Source: Cyanoderma ruficeps
Lineage: Eukaryota; Chordata; Aves; Passeriformes; Timaliidae
Assembly: GCA_008694505.1 (NCBI GenBank)
Contig: VZDJ01000064.1
Location: 805,281 to 869,280, forward strand
Direction of reading: 5' to 3'
DNA: 64,000 nt
Shown: positions 14,771-42,928 of the stretch, in pieces
Position numbering within the stretch: the first letter of the stretch is position 1
Layout: each line of letters starts with the position of its first letter
The notes under the pieces: model-generated
Told to the model about the DNA's origin: nothing
Databases searched by the model: none
The model's input: only the letters and a program-made list of their open reading frames with translations
Translations under genes and position numbers: made by a program

Positions 14771-14786
14771 NNNNNNNNNNNNNNNN
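14771..14786. other. Assembly gap (16 N)
   Basis: Sixteen undetermined bases lie about 115 bp upstream of the CDK7 start codon, in very GC-rich promoter DNA. The true gap size is unknown. A single further undetermined base is at 31066. Confidence 0.99.
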
Positions 14787-32760: not shown

Positions 32761-33285
32761 TCTTTCTGCCTATCAGGGTAGGTATTTAAGTCTGTCTGCA
32801 GTGGCAGACTGAACCAGCCTCAATGTGCCATGTATCAACACATAACCACACATCTTTCTCCCACACCTCTGCACCCTAAAATTCTTATCTTTTGCTTGGC
32901 AGCACACTTATTCACATTGATTACATTCTTTGCCATACGCCATGTCACTGAGAGAATGTCACTCTCAAGGTAAGTTGTGTAGCATTGCAGAAGTGGTAAC
33001 TGAAAGGAAGGGAATGCATTAGATAAGCCTATCAGAATAATCCAAGTACACTGGGTTCTTAATCTTCAGCTTTGCTTGGACAATTATGGTCTCTTGTCTC
33101 AGTGAGAGGTTTTAAGAGTTACTCCCCTACTGCTGTCCCCTTTTAGTGGTCCACAGGGAGTCAAGAACATGGTGAAATACCATGAGGAATGGAGGAGGCA
33201 TGCACCTTATAAGAGTGGTCTTTTGAGCTGCTGCACAGGCACACTGAATCACAAAGTAGGAGGTGGCCTGACAAGCACAACTTAC

Positions 33286-33424
33286 CAACTTGCATCCATC
33301 AAGGAGTTTCGGAGACAAACAGAAGGTAGGTGTTGCCATCATGGATGGAGGGAAGTGAACCAGGTCACAGCACACAATACACAGCTTCATCAGGTCCTTG
33401 GCCAGAATGTTTTGTTCAGTTTAC
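33286..33424 (-). pseudogene. CCNB1: CCNB1 relic exon 7 (second cyclin fold)
   Basis: A 139-base exon flanked by CTGCAG and GTAAGT. It reads EQNILAKDLMKLCIVCCDLV, then HFPPSMMATPTFCLSPKLLD. This aligns without gaps to the human cyclin B1 segment around [21 protein letters not shown]. Length and phase fit the human exon. An apparent in-frame TAA sits at its first codons (33421-33423). Hydrophobic core positions have been replaced by Cys and Pro. Confidence 0.85.
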
Positions 33425-33879
33425 CTGCAGTAAGTCAGAGTTAAATATTGGCTATCTCCAAGGCAAGAGCATCCTGTCAAGCCTTGGCTTAGTTAAACAC
33501 AAAGAAATACTTCCTTAGAGAACATTTTCAGAGTACAGGGTTGAAATTCAAGTGGCTTAATCACAGAACATTCCTGTGTTATATTAAGCCTGCTCATAGT
33601 CTAGGACTGCCCCTTTGAATAGCAGCCTAGCAGTTACCTGCAATATCAGTGTCACATTCCACTGTGGGAAACTGCAAGGAGTTCTTTTAAAATTAGATGG
33701 TCAGGAATGAAATTAAGCCAAATGAGACAAACATTGTATCTAAGAACCACCTACTCTTAACAAAAAACAAAATAAAAGCGAGTTACTCTACTAAAGAGAG
33801 CTAGAAAAGACAGAGCAAGAAGAAGAAAAATGGGAAAGGAATTGGGGAGGGGAAGAGAGACAGTCAGAGAGAAAGGAGA

Positions 33880-34180
33880 CAGAAAAAGATGCCACTGGAT
33901 GTCAGGGAGTGCTGTTGATGTCCACGAGGTGGGGGGTATGCATGTGGCTTGATGGGCAACAGGACATGAGGTGAGGGGGATTGGGCAGGGGGTCCAGAAG
34001 CCCGGAAAGGGTCAGAGTGAGGATCACAGCAGGTGGGCTGGCTCAGAGGTGGGCAGGGTTGGAGGTAGGGGGCTCAGGCAGGGACACAGGGAGGCAGAAC
34101 ACACAGGAGGGCCAAAAGGAAGTCTGGGGCCAGGACAAAGAATCAGGGGAAGGCCAACAAGACTGACATCTTGGTGGGAG
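33880..34180. repeat. G-rich low-complexity stretch
   Basis: An interval of irregular GGGG/AGG/CAGG-rich sequence sits just before the recognisable CR1 endonuclease region. It may be the diverged 5' part of that CR1 or independent low-complexity DNA. Long open frames here come from composition. Confidence 0.4.
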
Positions 34181-37100
34181 TCTGTTAAAGATCACCCAAC
34201 CAGGATGAAGAGGTAGGTAACTTATTCTACAAGCAGCCCTTGTTCTTGTAGGTGACTTTAACCTGGCAGCTATCAGCTGGAAACTCAACACAGCAAAGAA
34301 GAGGCAGCCTAGGAGGTTCTTAAGAGTGTATGGAGTACAACTTCTTGTTACAGCTGATGAGTGAGCCTACCAGGGGAAGGACTATGCTACACCTCCTGTT
34401 TGCAAACAGAGCTGGGCTGGTGGGAGATGTGGTGGCTGGAGACCACCTGGAGCACAGTGATTATGAAATTACAGAGTTTTCAATATTTGGTGAAACAAGG
34501 AGGGGCATCAATAAAACCTCCATACTGGACTTCTGGAGGGCAGACTTTGGCCTATTCAAGACACTTATTCAGAGAGCACCTTGGAAGCAGCCCTTTGTTG
34601 GTGGATGAGGCTTTCTTTTTTTTCCCCCTTTCCTTTACTTGTTACCGGCGGAACTTTTTCCCATTTGTGTTGCTAAGAAGCACTGATGGCTGGGTGCTTG
34701 AGACAGAGAGGAGGGGAAACTCTCACTTGATCTGAGCCTTTGGAGGGGAACAGTGTAGCTGCTGCTTGGGGAAAGGAACTCACTGCTGCTACAGAAGTCC
34801 AGCTTGGCCATGTTTCTTCTGGTGTGGGGTGAGCCTCTGGTCCTGGGAACAGCCACTCCACTGGGACCTTGTTATCTCCTGCATCACTAAAATAAGGGCC
34901 TGTTGCTATGCTGGGAGCCGGGTGACTGTTGTACCACTCCCCTTGTGCTTCTGTGGCACTGCTCTGAGTCTTTTCACTACTCTTTAGCCCGCACCCCCGT
35001 CTGCCAAGACCTCTCATGTCTTCAACCACAGCTCCAGAGTTTCTGATCCATCTCTTCCCATCTCAGATAAAGCCACCATTACCACGTGCCCCCCGAGCCC
35101 GTCCCACAGCGCCCCCTGCAGCCACGGGGGAATCATCGCACCCACCCGGCTCACTGGGAGCCACCAGCGCCCCTGCTGGCTGTGACCCGAACTACACCAA
35201 GGGGAAAGTGCCGCGCTCAGGGAAGCGGTGACCGGTTCTGTTTGTGGTTAATGTTGTAGTTGTTGTTTGTTTGCCTTGTTATACATACTTGTAAAGAACT
35301 GTTATTCCTATCCCCATGCCTTTGCCTGAGAGCCCTTTAATTTCAAAATTATAATAATTCGGGGGGAAAGGGTTTACATCTCCATTCCAAGGGAGGCCCT
35401 GGCTTTTCCTGGCAGACACCTGTCTTTCAAACTAAGACGCCCTTAAAAACAACAGAGTCCAGGAAAGGTGAGCATGCTTAAAAACAGAAATCTTGAAGGC
35501 ACAGGAATGGACTGTCTGTCTCTGTGTGCCAAAAGATGAGTCAATGAAGAAAACAACCAGCCTGGGTGGGCAAGGAGCTTTTGAAAGAGCTAAGGGGAAA
35601 AAAAGAGTGTGTATCACCCTTGAAAGCAGGGTCAGGTACCTCAGGAAATGCTTAAGGGAGTTGCTAGGTCATGTAGGAAAAAAATTAGAGAGGCAAAATT
35701 CCAGTTAGAACTCAATTTGGCCACTTCTGTAAAGGACAATAAAAATATTTTTACAAATACATTAATGACAAAAGGAGAGCAAGAACAACCTCTATTCTCT
35801 ATTAGATGCAGGAGGAAATTAAGTAATTAAAGATGAGGAAAAGGCAGAGGTGCTTATGACCTCCTTTGCCTTAGTTTTCAACAGAAAGACAGGCTGTCCT
35901 CAGGTCAACTGTCCTCCTGGGATGGTAGATGGTGTCAGGAAGCAGAACAGCCCCCCCCACCCCGTAATCCAGAAGGAAGCAGTCAGAGACTTGCTGAGCC
36001 ACTTAGGTACTCACAAATCTATGGGACCAGATGGGATCCATCCCAGGGTGATGAGGGAGCTGGCAGATGAGCTTGTGAAGCCACTCTCCATCTTTCTTTT
36101 TTTTTTCTCACTGGAAAAACATTTTTTTCTCATTTTTCTTTGCTCACTGGAAAGACTCCAGGGGACTGTAAGCTGCCCAATATGACATTGACCCACAAGG
36201 AGGCCAGAAGGAGGACCCAGGTAACTACAGGCCAGTCAGCCTGGCCTCAGCGTCTGGCAAGATTATGGAACAGATCACCTTGAGTGCCATCACACAGCAC
36301 TTACATGATGGCTGAGGATCAGACCAGCCAGCATGGGTTTAGAAGGGGCAGGTTCTGCTTGACCAGCCTGATCTCCTTTTATGACTAGGTGACCTGCCTG
36401 GTGGATGTGCAAAAGGCTGTGGATGTTTACCTGGACTTCAGCAAGGCCTTTGACACTGTCTCCCACAGCATACTCCTGGAAAAGCTGGTAGCCCAGGGTT
36501 TGTACAGGAGCACTCCTTGCTGGGCTAGGAACTGGCTGCATGGCCGGGCCCAGAGAGTGGTGGTGAACGATGTTGCATCCAGGGGGTTTCCAGTCACTAG
36601 CGGTGTCCCCCAGGGATCTGTGTTGGGGCCAGTCCTGTTTAGTATCTTCACTGATGATCTGGATGAGGGGATTGAGTCCACCATCAATAAATTTGCAGGG
36701 GACACCAAGCTGGGAGCACGTGTCAATCTCCTGGAAGGTAAGAGGGCTCTGCAAGGCCTCTGGACAGGCTGGATCGATGGGCCAAGTCCAACAATGTGAA
36801 GTTTAACAAGACCAAGTGCTGAGTCTTACACTTTGACCACAGCAATCCACTGCTGGGGACAGGGTGGCTGGACAGTGGCCAGGCAGAAGGGGACCTTGGG
36901 GTTGGCAGCAACTAAACATAGGGACCTTGAGTGCTGTGTCCAGTTTTGGCCCCTCAGTTTAGGAAGGATGTTGAGACACCTGAGCATGTCCAGAGAAGGC
37001 AACAAGGCTGGTGAGGGGCTTGGAGCACAAACCCTGTGAGGAACAGCTGAGGGAGCTGGGGTTGCTTAGCCTGGAGAAAAGGAGACTCAGAGGTGACCTC

Positions 37101-37400
37101 ATCACTCCCTACACGTACCTGGTTATAGTCAGGTGGGAGTCAGTCTCTTCTCCCAGGCAATCACCAATAGAAAAAGGGGACAGAGCCTTAAGCTGCACCA
37201 GGGGAAGTTTAGATTAGATGTCAGAAAAAAGTTCTTCATTGAAGAGTGATTGGGCACTGGAATGGGCTGCCCAGGGAGGTGGTGGAGCCACTGTTCCTGC
37301 ACGTGGCACACGGTGTCATGGTTTAGCTGATGAGGAGCTGTCAGGTTAGGTCATAGGTTGGACTTGTTCATCTCAAAGGTCTTTTCAAACGTAGTTCATT
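34180..37400 (+). mobile_element. Long CR1 LINE, split by an LTR
   Basis: The most complete CR1 in the window. The endonuclease part ('GDFNLAAISWKLNTAKKRQP', then SEPTRGRTMLHLLFANRAGL) ends at 34595 and resumes after the LTR at 35445. Reverse-transcriptase blocks follow: [49 protein letters not shown] and FAGDTKLGA, the last in place of the usual FADD-type box. The 3' end is near 37395. Stops, frameshifts and a T-rich insertion near 36090-36140 show that it is inactive. Confidence 0.93.
34596..35438 (+). mobile_element. Solo LTR of an avian endogenous retrovirus, nested in CR1
   Basis: An 843-bp insertion interrupts a CR1 exactly between homologous halves. The same six bases GCCCTT flank it on both sides (34590-34595 and 35439-35444), as a class II (ERVK-like) integration would leave. 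It starts TGTTGG and ends ...ACTAAGAC. It holds the GGGTTTACATCTCCATTCCA-type tail seen in avian LTRs. No internal coding region is present, so recombination between two LTRs is inferred. Confidence 0.85.
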
Positions 37401-37960
37401 CTGTAAAAAAAATAAAGGCAAAAACAGGCTGGGGCCAAAGCAAAACCAGAAGATTCAAAAAGCCCCTTGAATCACCAAGCCTCAAAAGCAAAAGCACAGT
37501 CTCAAAAAAGGCCCCAATCCAAAACCCCACCCACACTCAAAGAGCAAGTTTCGAAAAGCCCTGAGCGCTTGGGATGCAGTTACTTTTTATGCCCCTGGCT
37601 CTGCCCAAAGCCCACCTGCTGACAGGAGACCATTGGCCCAGTCCAACCTTTCACCATCTCATTGAACAAGCCCCTCTGAGGCGTTCAGTGTCTCCTACTG
37701 ACTGTTCCATGTGAGGTGTTGCCAGGCAAAATCCTCCCAGAGACAAGGCTTCTTCTACATGTAGGCTTGCCTCCTACACGTGACAAACGTGCACCTCTCC
37801 TCCACATGCCTCCGACAACCATTGTTGTGACAAATCAAAAATAAACTGGCTCCTCACAATCAGGCATGTATTTTAACACTGAATCTTGGCAAGTTAGGCT
37901 CATGTCAAAGGAACAGATAAATAAAACTAATTTCTACAGGAGACAGGTGTCAGCCAGGCT
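37401..37960. repeat. Unclassified, possibly retroviral, sequence
   Basis: A/C-rich sequence (37430-37570) followed by a CT-rich stretch to 37850, between the long CR1 and relic exon 6. The style resembles a minus-strand LTR, but I cannot find ends or duplications. I see no gene. Confidence 0.3.
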
Positions 37961-38048
37961 CAATTGCAATACTCAAAAATTTTGAGCCATTTTAACATTT
38001 GTGCCCCAGTTAAGTATTGCCTTTTCCAGATTCAATTTACAGTATTAC

Positions 38049-38298
38049 CTATTCTCAACACTTCTGCAATTTTTGAAGCTCTTCTTCAGCAGTGCAGAGG
38101 GAGAGGGCAACCCAGAGAGAAGTCCAGAGCTTCCAGGATCTTTGTCTCCATCTGGTGGATATGGACCTTTGAGCAAGTCTGGTCAGTTCCATAGCTGAAG
38201 TCTCCAAGATATGGGTGAAGAATTTCTGCATATTTGCTGGCAATGTACATGGCTATGACACCAACCTGCTGCAACTGCACCTTGGAAACAGCATTGTC
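38049..38298 (-). pseudogene. CCNB1: CCNB1 relic exon 6 with premature TGA in the cyclin box
   Basis: The exon follows TTTCTACAG and reads VQLQQVGVIAMYIASKYAEI, then GDFSYGTDQ, HQMETKILEALDFSLGCPLP and LHC-stop. It aligns end to end with human cyclin B1 (LQLVGVTAMFIASKYEE onward). The Leu codon after 'PLPLHF' is TGA (38086-38088). Beyond it the same frame continues as RRASKIAEV, matching human RRASKIGEV, so the stop is a lesion and not an exon end. The conserved SKYEE motif has become SKYAE. Confidence 0.9.
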
Positions 38299-38634
38299 CT
38301 GTAGAAAGAAGCAGCAGAGATTTATCTAAATGATTCAGAGCACAGGTTTTCAAGGTAGTCAACATAAGGTTGGTTATATGGCAGGATGTTCATACCCACT
38401 TACACAGAATAACTACACATCCTCTGTTACCTCTCTTGGCATGTGCAGGGGTGTCAGAAGGCTTTGAGTTCAAATCAGGGAGAGGAATAAGCAGTTTTGA
38501 CTCATCAACTCATTGTTCATAGCCAAGAGCTTTGTGTAGTACATACAATTGAGAGCTGAATGTCCTTTGTTGGTCATCTGTATTGTTAAAGGTATGTACA
38601 GCCATGTAGGGTGTTACTGACCAGCATTCATGCC

Positions 38635-38905
38635 TTAGCCTAGGGTAAAAGCCCCTTGTCAACTGACACATCCAGTCACTCCTTGAACACTTATGGAGAG
38701 TGACTTTACCCCTTCCCTGGGCAGCCCATTCCAGTGTCTGACCACCCTTTCACCCCAGAAGAAATTCTTCCTGATGTGCAACCTGAACCTCCCCTGGCAC
38801 AACTTGTGGCCATTTCTTCTTCTCCTGTCCTTATCTGGGAGTTTGGTACAGACATGGCCCACGGGTATAGATCACAGGGCACAAGGTTTCCTTGCTCACT
38901 AGACA
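38635..38905 (-). mobile_element. CR1 LINE 3' fragment inside the CCNB1 relic
   Basis: On the minus strand it carries the CR1 segments '[20 protein letters not shown]' and the adjoining 3' part. It lies between relic exons 3 and 6, where exons 4 and 5 would be expected. Unlike the long CR1 copies in the window, its orientation is the same as the gene. Confidence 0.85.
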
Positions 38906-39111
38906 TAGGCTAGAAAGGGCACAGTACTACTATTAGTAGTTGATTGGTCTAGCAACCAGCATCTCTTCATATAACCTGAGTTCAGTCCTGTATTTTAAAG
39001 TTGAAGGAAGCTTACCAATGCCTCTGGAGAACTCACTGGTGAAAGTGAATACCAACTCCAAGGCATCAACAGGGACAGGTTTACTGCAAATGTCACTAGA
39101 TACCTACCAAC

Positions 39112-39316
39112 CTTATGTCTCAGATAGTTGTAGATGTCCTTCACATAGCTGCTACACAGGTTTGGGTCATTACTATCTTACATGTCTGGGTCTTCAGACT
39201 CAAGCAAGATATCAGATAAAGCCTGACACAGTATGTGTCTTCTGCTGGATCACATTCTCATATTTCCATGGGGTTTGGAGACTGATGCTCTGTCTACAAG
39301 GAAATTCAGAAAATCA
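39112..39316 (-). pseudogene. CCNB1: CCNB1 relic exon 3 with in-frame stop
   Basis: It follows ATCTGCAG and contains LVDRAS (human ILVDTAS). A frame break follows, then CQALSDILLESEDPDM, TAA (39178-39180), then DSNDPNLCSSYVKDIYNYLR. The last part matches human cyclin B1 ADPNLCSEYVKDIYAYLR almost residue for residue. The TAA replaces a codon that is Glu in human (one base change from GAA). The text between LVDRAS and CQALSD reads best in a second frame, which also carries a TGA. Confidence 0.92.
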
Positions 39317-39488
39317 CTGCAGATAGCATCTCCCTCCATAGCCCAGTGTGGGCCAAGCTGCAATCCTGCAGGATGGAGCCCTGCAGGGGCTCATGACCCC
39401 TATTTCAGGGCACCAGAGGAAGTCATGGCTCTGCTACAGCGGCGGCTGGGGAAGGGGCACACGGCAGAAGGGAGGCCGCAGACGGTAC

Positions 39489-39756
39489 CTTGGAGGGCTC
39501 TGGCTGAGGCTCCGGGGCTGGCGGGGGCAGGTTTTCCTTGGAGAAAGCGTCAGCAGCCTGCTGGTAACCATCCTTCCCGAGACGGGGGCGCCCTAGACAC
39601 TCGGCTGCCCGTAGTCCCTCTTCAACTTGGCGACTTCTTGGCGGCTGGAAGCACTTTCGGCTCAGCCAGGCAGTTGCCGATGTTCCGCCATCGTGGGGGC
39701 GGTGGCTGTCCCATTCTTGGGGACTGGGGGCGCTCTCCTCTCGTTCGAGGGATCGG
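39489..39756 (-). pseudogene. CCNB1: CCNB1 relic exon 2 with frameshifts
   Basis: Cyclin B1 exon 2 encodes the N-terminal region with the ALGDIGN motif and a Pro/Glu-rich stretch. Here, after CTCTGCAG, similarity moves through three frames: APPVPKNGTATAP, then RWRNIGNCLAEPKVLPAAKK ending in TGA (39622-39624), then AFSKENLPPPAPEPQPEPSK before a GTACCG donor. The match to human PRTALGDIGNKVSEQ and the PVPEPEPEPEP stretch is partial but in order. The frame changes show that it cannot encode the protein. Confidence 0.75.
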
Positions 39757-39951
39757 CTGCAGAGCGGCGCTGCAGGGGAGCGCGAGAGAAGAGCAGACAG
39801 CGGGACGGCGCCTGTGAGTGTGCGCTGCACCGCCGCGCCCCCGGGCCGCGGGAACGGGAACCGGGGCAGCGCTACAGGCAAGAGGAGCGGAGCCGGGGCA
39901 GGACCGCAAGGCTCCGGAGCCGAAGGGGATTAGGTGCGGAGCTGAGGGGCT

Positions 39952-40007
39952 TCACTCTCCTCCCCTTCGCCCTAGAGGGCCCTCTAGGGCGAAGGGGAGG
40001 AGAGTGA
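39952..40007. repeat. Perfect 56-bp palindrome without spacer
   Basis: The left arm (39952-39979, beginning TCACTCTCCTCC) is the exact reverse complement of the right arm (39980-40007). There is no loop and no mismatch. It lies in the CpG-rich island upstream of CCNB1 relic exon 2. It could form a cruciform in DNA or a hairpin in RNA, or it could be an assembly fold-back. Confidence 0.97.
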
Positions 40008-40400
40008 GGGAACCAAGCGAAATGGGCACACACCCACACCGCCCTCCCCGCCAGGCGAAGACCGGGCTGGCCCCGGGCGGTATCCCGCACTGCCCGCCAA
40101 GCTGAACGGAGGGGAAGGGAAGGAGCGAGCAGGACACGAAGAGCCGCGCAGGTGCCTCCCCGCCCGCCCGCCCTGGCCCCATCGTGCACGTACCGAGATG
40201 AGCGCCGGGGAGCAGCAGAAGCAGCGGGACGGGCGCGGTGCCGGCGCCGCGCGTTTCAAGCCCGCGGCCGCCGCCCCGGGCGAGGCGCACACCGCCCGCC
40301 CACTGCCCGCCGGGGCCCCGCCCCGACACGCCGCCGCAGCGTGGACCTTGCTGCGGTCCCCATGGCTTCTGCTCCCGGGAAGCCAACATGCGGGACGTAA

Positions 40401-42928
40401 AACATTACGCGAAAACAATAACGTTTTCCTCCTTATTACACACGTACTGCTCGCTCGGAGTGCCTTTTAAAACTGTTCAATCTTTCAAAGTGTTTTGTTA
40501 CACCTCTCTGCATACATATCAGGTGATTAGATTGAACCTCCCCACACCCTCCCTGCATGAAGATGAATCAAACGGCCTGCACCTGTGGTTTGAACACCTG
40601 CCCACACAGCACAGTTCCAATGGATCTTGTGGGGAATCCTGAACCCTCCTTTGGTGGGTTATTGCTGGACCAAACAAATTTAAAATGGGTGTTGTAAGAT
40701 AAGACAATGCTTATTGCCATCATCTTCATGCCAGGAGAGCCAGGAAGAACACGGTGCATGTGTGCTGGATAACATGCAGAAACCTGCCAAATGCAAGCTA
40801 AGATGCAGCTTTGCACTTGCCTGTGAAGTCTGCAGATATGGGCTTATCTTCACTGCCATGATCACAGTGCCAGCCACCTTGATTTGTTTTGGGTTCTGCT
40901 GCTACCAGCTGAAGTAGGAAATCACCATTTGCTTCAGAGGAAGCCGTGGCAAGCACAGAAGCTTTGCATTTACATTAAGATAATGATTTAAAAGACAGAA
41001 TTACTCCCTTTTCATAATTTTCATTCCATGTCACAATGGGGTTTGCTGAAATACTGTCAATTCTAGTACAACCACCTCAAAACGGGAGTGGCACATGTAA
41101 ACATTAATTGAAGCTTTTTGTTTGAGATTGATTTCAAAACCAAAATATCACCCCAGTTCTAGACTGTAGTGCATAACTGTAGCTCATCAAGTGATGAGCC
41201 TTCTGGAGGAGGCAGGGTAAGAAAACCACAGCCAAATGGGCAGAAAACAGGATCTGGATTTGAGGAGGTGGCTGACTCTCCAGCGCTGTCCCAAGACGTG
41301 AGGGACTGCGATTTATGCACTTAATATTCATCACTCTACACAAAAGCAGTGCAACTTCTGGAAGTTTTCTGACCACAGTTTTCCAAGTCAGTCTTGTACT
41401 GCAGATGGTGTTTTAACATAGCACGGGAGGAACTCCTTCAAGAGTACCAAAACAAATCACAGTTGTATAAACAATCTGATCACAAGACAAGCAGACTGGC
41501 TCAAGGACATGGGTAACTGCATTCCTGGTAAATCCCCTGTAACAACATAATTCCTTTATCACTCTGTTCTGTCCTTCAATTTCACTAACCTCAAGCCTAT
41601 TCTTATTATTATGGTATTCAAGAACCACCGAATACCAGAAACAAGAAAACAGTATGACAAAACAATACTGCTATGATACATATGATGATGAAAGATGTAT
41701 TCATTGTAGTTAATCACTGAATTAATTTCTTATATTTCAAGGACTATTAACATGCTACAGACAAGAAGAGGGGGCACAAGAAGCCTGTAAACAGATGTAA
41801 GCACAACTACCTCTGACGATGTATTTTATTACCTCACTGACAGGTTTTCACTAAACACACAGATTTGTTTTCTTTGCAGTATTAAGTCCTCAAATTCTTT
41901 CTTAAAGGCAATCTTTCACTTTCCAGTCAAGAAGTCTCAATTTACTGTTAATTTCAGCAACTTGTCAAGTCAAAGACTACTGTCACAGTTTAGCATTCTA
42001 AACCTGAACTTCTTCCCTAGGTAGTACCTGGAGGTACAGCTGGCTACAGTATACCTGCAGCTGTCATGCTATTACTAAAAAAGTTGAGTAAAGTACAGGA
42101 TAACATATCTTGAAGAGATGAAGTTTAGCTGAGTGCTAGGATGCTCACTGATTTATTACTTTTGGACTTCAAATATTGCATTTGCAGCTATTCATACAAA
42201 AAGTACAAAAACTTTTATTTTACAGAGTGGTTTGAGCTATGATTCTGAGTCTTCCCAGGAAAAAGCATTTTCATTTTCTTCCCTTCCCTATTTCTCACTG
42301 TTAAATCTGTGGATTTTGCTTCTTAAAAAAGATAGTTCGATACAAATGTAAAATGGTAACACATATTTGCTCTGATGCATTAAGTGTAGAAATCAGATCT
42401 GTATGCTGACATAATATAAAACCCGTGTATTTCTGTAATTTAACAAAGTATGCACAACACAGGACTTGATGTTTTTTACTCCCCATAATAAAGAGGTGTT
42501 TTTTTTTTCATTCCAAGAGTCTTCAAGCTATCCTTGAAAGAAAGAAAAACATTGCCCTGTTGATCATGTTTTCAATTCCAGTATAAACTACTTCTATTTC
42601 CCACTGCTAACAAGAAATTATAATACCCATGTTCCACACTTTAGAGAAAGTATGGAAAATAAAAGTTTCAAGACTTCTGTTTAATAAACACCAAGTATGG
42701 TATATAAGATTTTGATTATTTTCACATTTACAGCAAGTACTCAAGTCCTTCTTATTTCCTTTATAAAAGCATCTCAATCCAATTAACAAAGATAGTACAG
42801 TTACAAAAATTCAAATATATAGTGCATTTGTTTCTGTACATGTATGTGCAAGATCCCCTGGCAAAAATACAAATATGGAATCCAACAGCTTGACCATTTA
42901 CATCCCCTTTGGCAAATACAACTTTGTA
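40401..42928. other. SLC30A5 3' flank and 3' UTR region
   Basis: No exon is recognisable left of the SLC30A5 stop codon (42929). The 3' UTR should occupy the right part. Minus-strand AATAAA hexamers at 42214-42219 and 42152-42157 are candidate polyadenylation signals, unproven. The rest, to the CpG island at 40.4 kb, is AT-rich sequence without a recognised repeat. Confidence 0.45.

Follow-up and report, generated by a model that had tools for sequence, protein, structure and literature searches.

The cyclin B1 gene of the passerine Cyanoderma ruficeps has very probably decayed in place between SLC30A5 and CENPH

We analysed a 64-kb window (the whole stretch of 64,000 nucleotides from one contig of this bird) and found an intron-bearing locus of CCNB1 on the minus strand, flanked by SLC30A5 and CENPH. 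Cyclin B1 is the textbook activator of CDK1. With high confidence we read the interval as the original CCNB1 of a passerine, decayed where it stands and thus a unitary pseudogene, because it keeps the syntenic place and the introns, carries stops and frameshifts, has one unrecognisable exon, has lost invariant residues and has no second CCNB1 to accompany it in the assembly. The reading rests on the DNA of one assembly. A first-pass annotation had proposed a dead CCNB1 between these two neighbours, and the ordered, disrupted exon remnants recovered by tblastn bear this out. The annotation had the locus right and its end, at 33,055, too early, since e7 (32,999-32,889) and e8 extend the relic to 32,298. 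Exons are numbered e1-e8 along this locus (Table 1), so that the exons 6 and 7 of the annotation are e5 and e6 here.

Table 1. Features of the CCNB1 relic, in window positions.
Feature	Positions	Strand	Basis or remark
e1 end, candidate	40188..40208	-	GCGCTC of 'MALR' recognisable, ATG not
e2 relic, destruction-box exon	39489..39720	-	tblastn matches, frame reading
e3 relic, human residues about 126-180	39112..39293	-	tblastn matches, frame reading
Expected e4 interval, human residues 184-235, MRAIL helix	38299..39111	-	exon not recognisable
e5 relic, human residues 236-314, cyclin box	38062..38298	-	tblastn matches, frame reading
e5-e6 intron	33425..38061		reverse-transcriptase-bearing repeat and dispersed LTR-like repeat
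Reverse-transcriptase frame in e5-e6 intron	36,389-36,799	+	Pfam RVT_1
e6 relic, human residues 315-361	33286..33424	-	tblastn matches; intron phase from CCNB2
e7 relic, human residues 362-397	32889..32999	-	open frame; tblastn matches; phase from CCNB2
e8 relic, C-terminal part (KISTIEQ...) only, with terminal TAA	32298..32360	-	tblastn, frame reading

The identity of the locus is established by similarity and by place. Human CCNB1 recovers the exons, and so do its counterparts from alligator, ostrich, pigeon, curlew and king vulture; e5 matches ostrich CCNB1 at E = 9.6e-28. The relic is identical to ostrich CCNB1 at 140 of 231 residues and to the bird's own CCNB2 at 111 of 226, and is therefore nearer to CCNB1. 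Exon frames and Pfam place SLC30A5, CCNB1 and CENPH on a common strand, in an order for which the reference was what we take to be the human gene order SLC30A5-CCNB1-CENPH. The neighbours had been described as intact; this holds for SLC30A5 as far as two exons that exceed the Pfam Cation_efflux cut-off, and is less secure for CENPH, of which one exon matches Pfam CENP-H at 20.4 bits, under the cut-off of 29.9. Five of the 10 window frames compared with Pfam gave no match, and four of those five read as SLC30A5 or CENPH sequence.

Introns are retained: AG acceptors precede e3, e5, e6 and e7, and the exons are spaced by up to 4.6 kb. These introns speak strongly against a processed retrocopy, which the annotation had ruled out on the same ground. 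Its CR1 and LTR insertions fared less evenly. Pfam RVT_1 confirms the reverse-transcriptase-bearing repeat, presumably a CR1, in the e5-e6 intron; what the annotation took for an LTR is a dispersed repeat, some 840 bases long and near 34,596-35,439, whose other near-full-length copies are 74-83% identical and which would fit a solo LTR. A perfect 28-base inverted repeat with zero spacer lies near the former CCNB1 promoter.

Disabling changes are spread along the relic. In e2 the frame switches between about 39,650 and 39,600, and a TGA at 39,622-39,624 sits in the frame that the frameshift abandons, so that the two count as one lesion. Exon e3 carries a TGA (39,258-39,260), a frameshift near 39,235 and a TAA (39,178-39,180). 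A search for e4 in its expected interval gave a best score of 31-35, against a maximum of 36-43 over 60 shuffles and 246 for e5 as control. There is an in-frame TGA at 38,086-38,088 in e5, where the conserved KYEE reads KYAE; the annotation had likewise listed a lost cyclin-box residue. A 2-base frameshift lies at the start of e6 (33,415-33,424), which retains a GTAAGT donor; the donor of e7 is probably broken, with AT in place of GT at 32,887-32,888. The start codon in e1 has probably been lost, judging from a stork protein model, and e8 is weak when taken alone (E 0.12-1.1 with four of the five bird and alligator queries). Long open stretches persist in e5, e6 and e7.

The tally is three frameshifts (e2, e3 and e6) and three stops that interrupt frames homologous to CCNB1, of which e3 has two and e5 one; a complete cyclin box with its MRAIL helix is absent, e4 being unrecognisable and e5 interrupted by a stop. 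At least three independent lesions had been claimed before: the frameshift in e2, the TAA in e3 and the TGA in e5 are real, while the e2 TGA loses its independence from the frameshift. The TGA and frameshift in e3, the frameshift in e6, the probable donor change in e7, the missing e4 and the probable loss of the e1 start are additions to that list.

The decay exceeds chance: of 54 sites that are otherwise invariant, 16 are broken in the relic, and the 62 other vertebrate CCNB1 sequences break 0-8 (worst 8/73), in a test that excluded Xenopus from the 63 non-relic proteins of the alignment. The rows of Pterocles, Aegotheles and Morus look odd or low-quality as models; once they are removed, 18 of 67 sites are broken in the relic and at most 3 of 89 in any other row. 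Judged by the 16 broken sites, protein-level selective constraint is gone from the relic.

A genome-wide hunt for a second CCNB1, which the annotation had advised, found none in the assembly, either with the Cyclin_N profile (24 matches, 40/40 candidates scored) or with human CCNB1 (29 matches, 35/35 candidates scored). The exons of CCNB2 and the cyclin box of CCNB3 are open frames in this assembly. GH is represented by two genes in this bird, a mark of passerines.

A working CCNB1 elsewhere (a moved copy, or one on an unassembled microchromosome or the germline-restricted chromosome), with the relic as the abandoned original, is improbable. Our searches reach only what one assembly contains, and the passerine germline-restricted chromosome, in the portion of the literature considered, would be absent from somatic DNA. 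Yet both searches show CCNB2 and the relic as the sole B1/B2-type matches, no passerine CCNB1 is among the named matches listed in public proteins, and a copy confined to the germline would be of no use in somatic mitosis. It is more doubtful still that the contig belongs to the W chromosome and that the relic is the dead partner of an intact Z copy. The SLC30A5/CCNB1/CENPH block is presumably Z-linked in birds, and this counts for such a reading, as do the small size of the contig (947 kb) and its repeats; against it, an SLC30A5 exon has a single 100% match in the assembly (the sole other match has 54% identity across 50 residues), so that a second, Z-linked copy of the neighbour was not found there, nor was a second CCNB1, and the main text of a paper on bird W chromosomes is without SLC30A5, CENPH, CDK7 and CCNB1.

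We give scarcely any credence to a processed or duplicated copy in place of the original gene: nothing in its favour was found, a second locus would be required, and it is opposed by the introns with their AG acceptors, by the place between SLC30A5 and CENPH and by the lack of another CCNB1 in the assembly. Equally hard to credit is a living gene disfigured by sequencing or assembly errors. The use of a single assembly and the spacerless inverted repeat near the old promoter speak for errors, but the damage (three frameshifts, three stops, one exon missing, 16 invariant sites broken) extends over 7 kb, and the window's only N letters lie at 14,771-14,786 and 31,066.

Decay of the original gene in this bird does not extend to all birds. 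CCNB1 proteins are on public record for at least six palaeognath and at least 42 neoavian genera, many of the neoavian matches being incomplete at about 72% of the query, and we dismissed a bird-wide loss on the strength of the neoavian records. Among the named matches listed in public proteins there is no CCNB1 from a passerine, parrot, falcon, fowl or duck. In the rooted tree palaeognath CCNB1 has hardly changed, by a mean of 0.04 changes per site from the bird node onward, and neoavian CCNB1 has changed 8-11 times more, a contrast drawn from CCNB1 alone. Palaeognaths evolve slowly in general. Many other birds keep a working but fast-changing CCNB1, and constraint apparently loosened ahead of loss.

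The relic falls within the neognath group (SH-aLRT 100). Its bird order is not resolved by the tree, where its branch is 0.97 and no starred set of at most half of the rows contains it; Xenopus, Lepidochelys and Rhineura were left out, and duplicate Balearica and Gavia entries (P0200, P0211) were not aligned. The 12 sites that differ between palaeognaths and Neoaves are of little help, the relic having the neoavian state at four, the palaeognath state at two, another at three and none at three where it is missing.

Selection on CCNB1 may have weakened after the palaeognath split because its sister cyclin CCNB2 could activate CDK1 instead; CCNB1 would then have become dispensable and vanished in this bird's lineage once Neoaves had begun diverging, leaving mitotic entry to CCNB2, possibly aided by CCNB3 and cyclin A2. 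The takeover raised by the annotation calls for open sister genes, and CCNB2 and the CCNB3 cyclin box are open in the assembly; we think it likely that CCNB2 took over. In mouse, endogenous cyclin B2 does not make up for the loss of Ccnb1 in embryos or meiosis II, according to the portion of the review considered (PMC10487953), which counts against a takeover. A chick study that mentions cyclin B1 expression, yet cites the identical source for B2, counts against loss (PMC3669015). We see an even chance that selection on CCNB1 loosened once, in stem Neoaves or Neognathae, while CCNB2 was turning into the principal partner of CDK1, with surviving neoavian copies drifting at 8-11 times the palaeognath rate and independent losses in several lineages, the passerines here among them and perhaps also fowl, parrots and falcons.

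A lineage living without cyclin B1, if real, would show that the role of CDK1 activator is transferable in vertebrates, and if the loosening and independent losses also hold, birds would be natural knock-outs of a cyclin deemed indispensable in vertebrates. The graded series, from nearly frozen palaeognaths through fast Neoaves to the dead gene here, opens a CCNB2 takeover to comparison and to tests in bird cells. Cyclin B1 markers and antibodies should not be used blindly in songbirds or, following a published remark seen in the part of the paper considered, in chicken (PMC8823707).

Among titles and the starts of abstracts (supplements, preprints and most subscription papers lay outside this scope), we found no report of CCNB1 loss in birds. 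Among the closest parallels to the decayed, intron-bearing relic are STK33 and DCC in birds. As described in the portions of the papers considered, DCC is always Z-linked in the birds that have it, is essential in mammals, is present in most birds and was lost independently in galliforms and passerines; it vanished together with a block of adjacent genes as the Z was rearranged (PMC5327424), whereas CCNB1, presumably Z-linked too, decays singly between retained neighbours. STK33, likewise a conserved vertebrate gene, works in palaeognaths, and in other birds only remnants of its exons are left, marked by deletions, indels and stops; unlike CCNB1, a mitotic gene essential in mouse and recorded in at least 42 neoavian genera, it is dead in 28 of the 28 neognaths of that study (PMC4509753). 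Mitotic proteomics of chicken DT40 cells found cyclins B2, A2 and B3 in mitosis, with cyclin B1 'yet to be identified in chicken'; the sections considered name no pseudogene, other birds or evolutionary account (PMC8823707). In mouse, as far as the portion considered goes, Ccnb1 loss is embryo-lethal and Ccnb2 loss tolerated, the opposite of what this bird implies, but cyclin B2 can substitute for cyclin B1 in meiosis I of oocytes, a redundancy of the kind proposed for this bird (PMC10487953).

The remnants of the cyclin B1 gene (CCNB1) lie on the minus strand between sequence of SLC30A5 (above ~45 kb of the window) and CENPH (below ~31.5 kb), both also on the minus strand. The contig, of 946,871 bases with the window at positions 805,281–869,280, belongs to an assembly of 481 contigs (1.03 Gb). 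A tblastn search with human CCNB1 (typed, then checked by its match to a PDB chain over all 433 residues) recovered in order a piece of exon 2, exons 3, 5, 6 and 7, and a short exon 8. Ostrich, curlew, king vulture, pigeon and alligator CCNB1 gave the same picture, except that the exon 8 piece was not shown with the pigeon query. The relic shares 140 of 231 residues with ostrich CCNB1 and 111 of 226 with the same bird's CCNB2, and we therefore identify it as CCNB1.

The reading frame is broken in several exons.

Lesions of the CCNB1 relic (window positions; exons numbered along the locus)
Feature	Position	Strand	Basis or remark
Exon 2 frame change	between ~39,650 and ~39,600	minus	reading frames
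Exon 2 TGA	39,622–39,624	minus	belongs to the frame abandoned at the exon 2 frame change
Exon 3 TGA	39,258–39,260	minus	reading frames
Exon 3 frameshift	near 39,235	minus	reading frames
Exon 3 TAA	39,178–39,180	minus	reading frames
Exon 5 TGA	38,086–38,088	minus	reading frames
Exon 6 start, 2-base shift from expected frame		minus	intron phase from the same genome's CCNB2
Exon 7 donor, AT in place of GT		minus	GT predicted from CCNB2 phase

Exon 4 was not found, its best scores being 31–35 in the expected interval and 32–36 over 31–41 kb (60 shuffles reach 36–43; the control, exon 5, scores 246). Judging from a stork protein model, the start codon also seems to have been lost. The N letters of the window (14,771–14,786 and 31,066) fall outside the relic.

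GC content is 67–68% across 39,500–40,500, which spans the first exons and promoter of the dead gene, as if the CpG island had outlived CCNB1. Within this GC-rich stretch, at the old promoter, 39,952–40,007 is a perfect inverted repeat (two 28-base arms, no spacer), either a real palindrome or an assembly artefact. A dispersed repeat of ~840 bases occupies 34,596–35,439; it has many copies in the assembly, the near-full-length ones 74–83% identical.

Over the whole assembly, the Cyclin_N profile gave 24 matches (40 of 40 candidates scored) and human CCNB1 gave 29 (35 of 35), among which the relic and CCNB2 (contig 109) were the only ones of B1/B2 type. CCNB2 is intact, with open exons; compared with the typed human sequence, six of them are 71–80% identical, and the identity of the N-terminal exon is 39%. 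CCNB3 (contig 45) is represented by four cyclin-box pieces 80–92% identical and a fifth alignment that crosses an intron. The SLC30A5 exon is single, a second match being only 54% identical over 50 residues. Two diverged GH last exons, on contigs 325 and 55, are 71% and 75% identical to typed chicken GH; this is a passerine hallmark, since PMC10016047 places the GH duplicate in all major passerine lineages and in no other birds, and on this evidence the bird is very probably a passerine.

Aligned with CCNB1 of other vertebrates (62 sequences), the relic differs at 16 of the 54 readable columns that are invariant among the others. The same test applied to each of the others found no difference in 46 of the 62 and at worst 8 of 73. 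With three odd models excluded, the count for the relic is 18 of 67 columns and that for the worst other sequence 3 of 89. The neoavian models from Pterocles (P0192), Aegotheles (P0195) and Morus (P0218) have 5–8 otherwise invariant sites broken, or odd ends; these could be either additional copies in decay or badly modelled genes.

A maximum-likelihood tree of 61 CCNB1 sequences places the relic in a neognath group with SH-aLRT 100. Mean distance from the bird node is 0.039 changes per site for the 6 palaeognath tips and 0.441 for the 42 neoavian tips (least 0.262), with the relic at 1.22. Leaving out the relic together with five sequences that were long or odd gives means of 0.049 and 0.385 (37 neoavian sequences), a ratio of ~8 versus 11 with all included. 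Identity to human CCNB1 averages 82% in palaeognaths and 69% in Neoaves, against 55% in the relic. The palaeognath–neoavian contrast may be partly genome-wide, because palaeognaths evolve slowly in general and the rates were measured on CCNB1 only.

Human, tortoise and curlew CCNB1 each served as a protein query, and the best 120 of 3104, 5025 and 1748 matches, respectively, were read. Among those listed for curlew were at least 44 neoavian CCNB1 sequences, many of them partial, from at least 42 genera, including waders, gulls, storks, cranes, penguins, hawks, seriema, hornbill and pigeon; curlew and tortoise queries alike listed at least six palaeognath genera. No passerine, parrot, falcon, fowl or duck appeared among the named matches listed. 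This absence is only suggestive, because the matches are the best 120 of much larger numbers, some are nameless, and clusters display few of their members. For chicken, one passage states that "Cyclin B1 is yet to be identified in chicken" (PMC8823707). Contrary to this, a chick retina study mentions cyclin B1 expression, although the reference it gives is cited elsewhere in that paper for cyclin B2; that study employed introduced cyclin B1 (PMC3669015).

Most simply, CCNB1 would have become dispensable and then decayed at its original locus. CCNB2 probably took over ahead of the loss; such a takeover would also account for the rapid change seen in the neoavian copies of CCNB1 that survive. 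Excerpts of a review report that in mouse oocytes cyclin B2 can replace cyclin B1 in meiosis I, and that without Ccnb1 mouse embryos die and oocytes fail in meiosis II (PMC10487953). Cyclins B2, A2 and B3 are described in mitosis of chicken cells in part of PMC8823707. The position of the relic inside the neognath group would place the loss in this bird's lineage after Neoaves began to diverge.

None of the papers listed by the searches on cyclin B1 describes a loss of avian CCNB1, and the word "cyclin" is absent from the main texts examined on missing avian genes. The type of event is already known, since losses of STK33 and DCC have been described in birds; the affected gene is the surprise. 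STK33, a conserved gene, functions in palaeognaths and was a unitary pseudogene in 28 of 28 neognaths (PMC4509753). Z-linked DCC was lost in passerines, and independently in galliforms, but went along with a block of its neighbours (PMC5327424).
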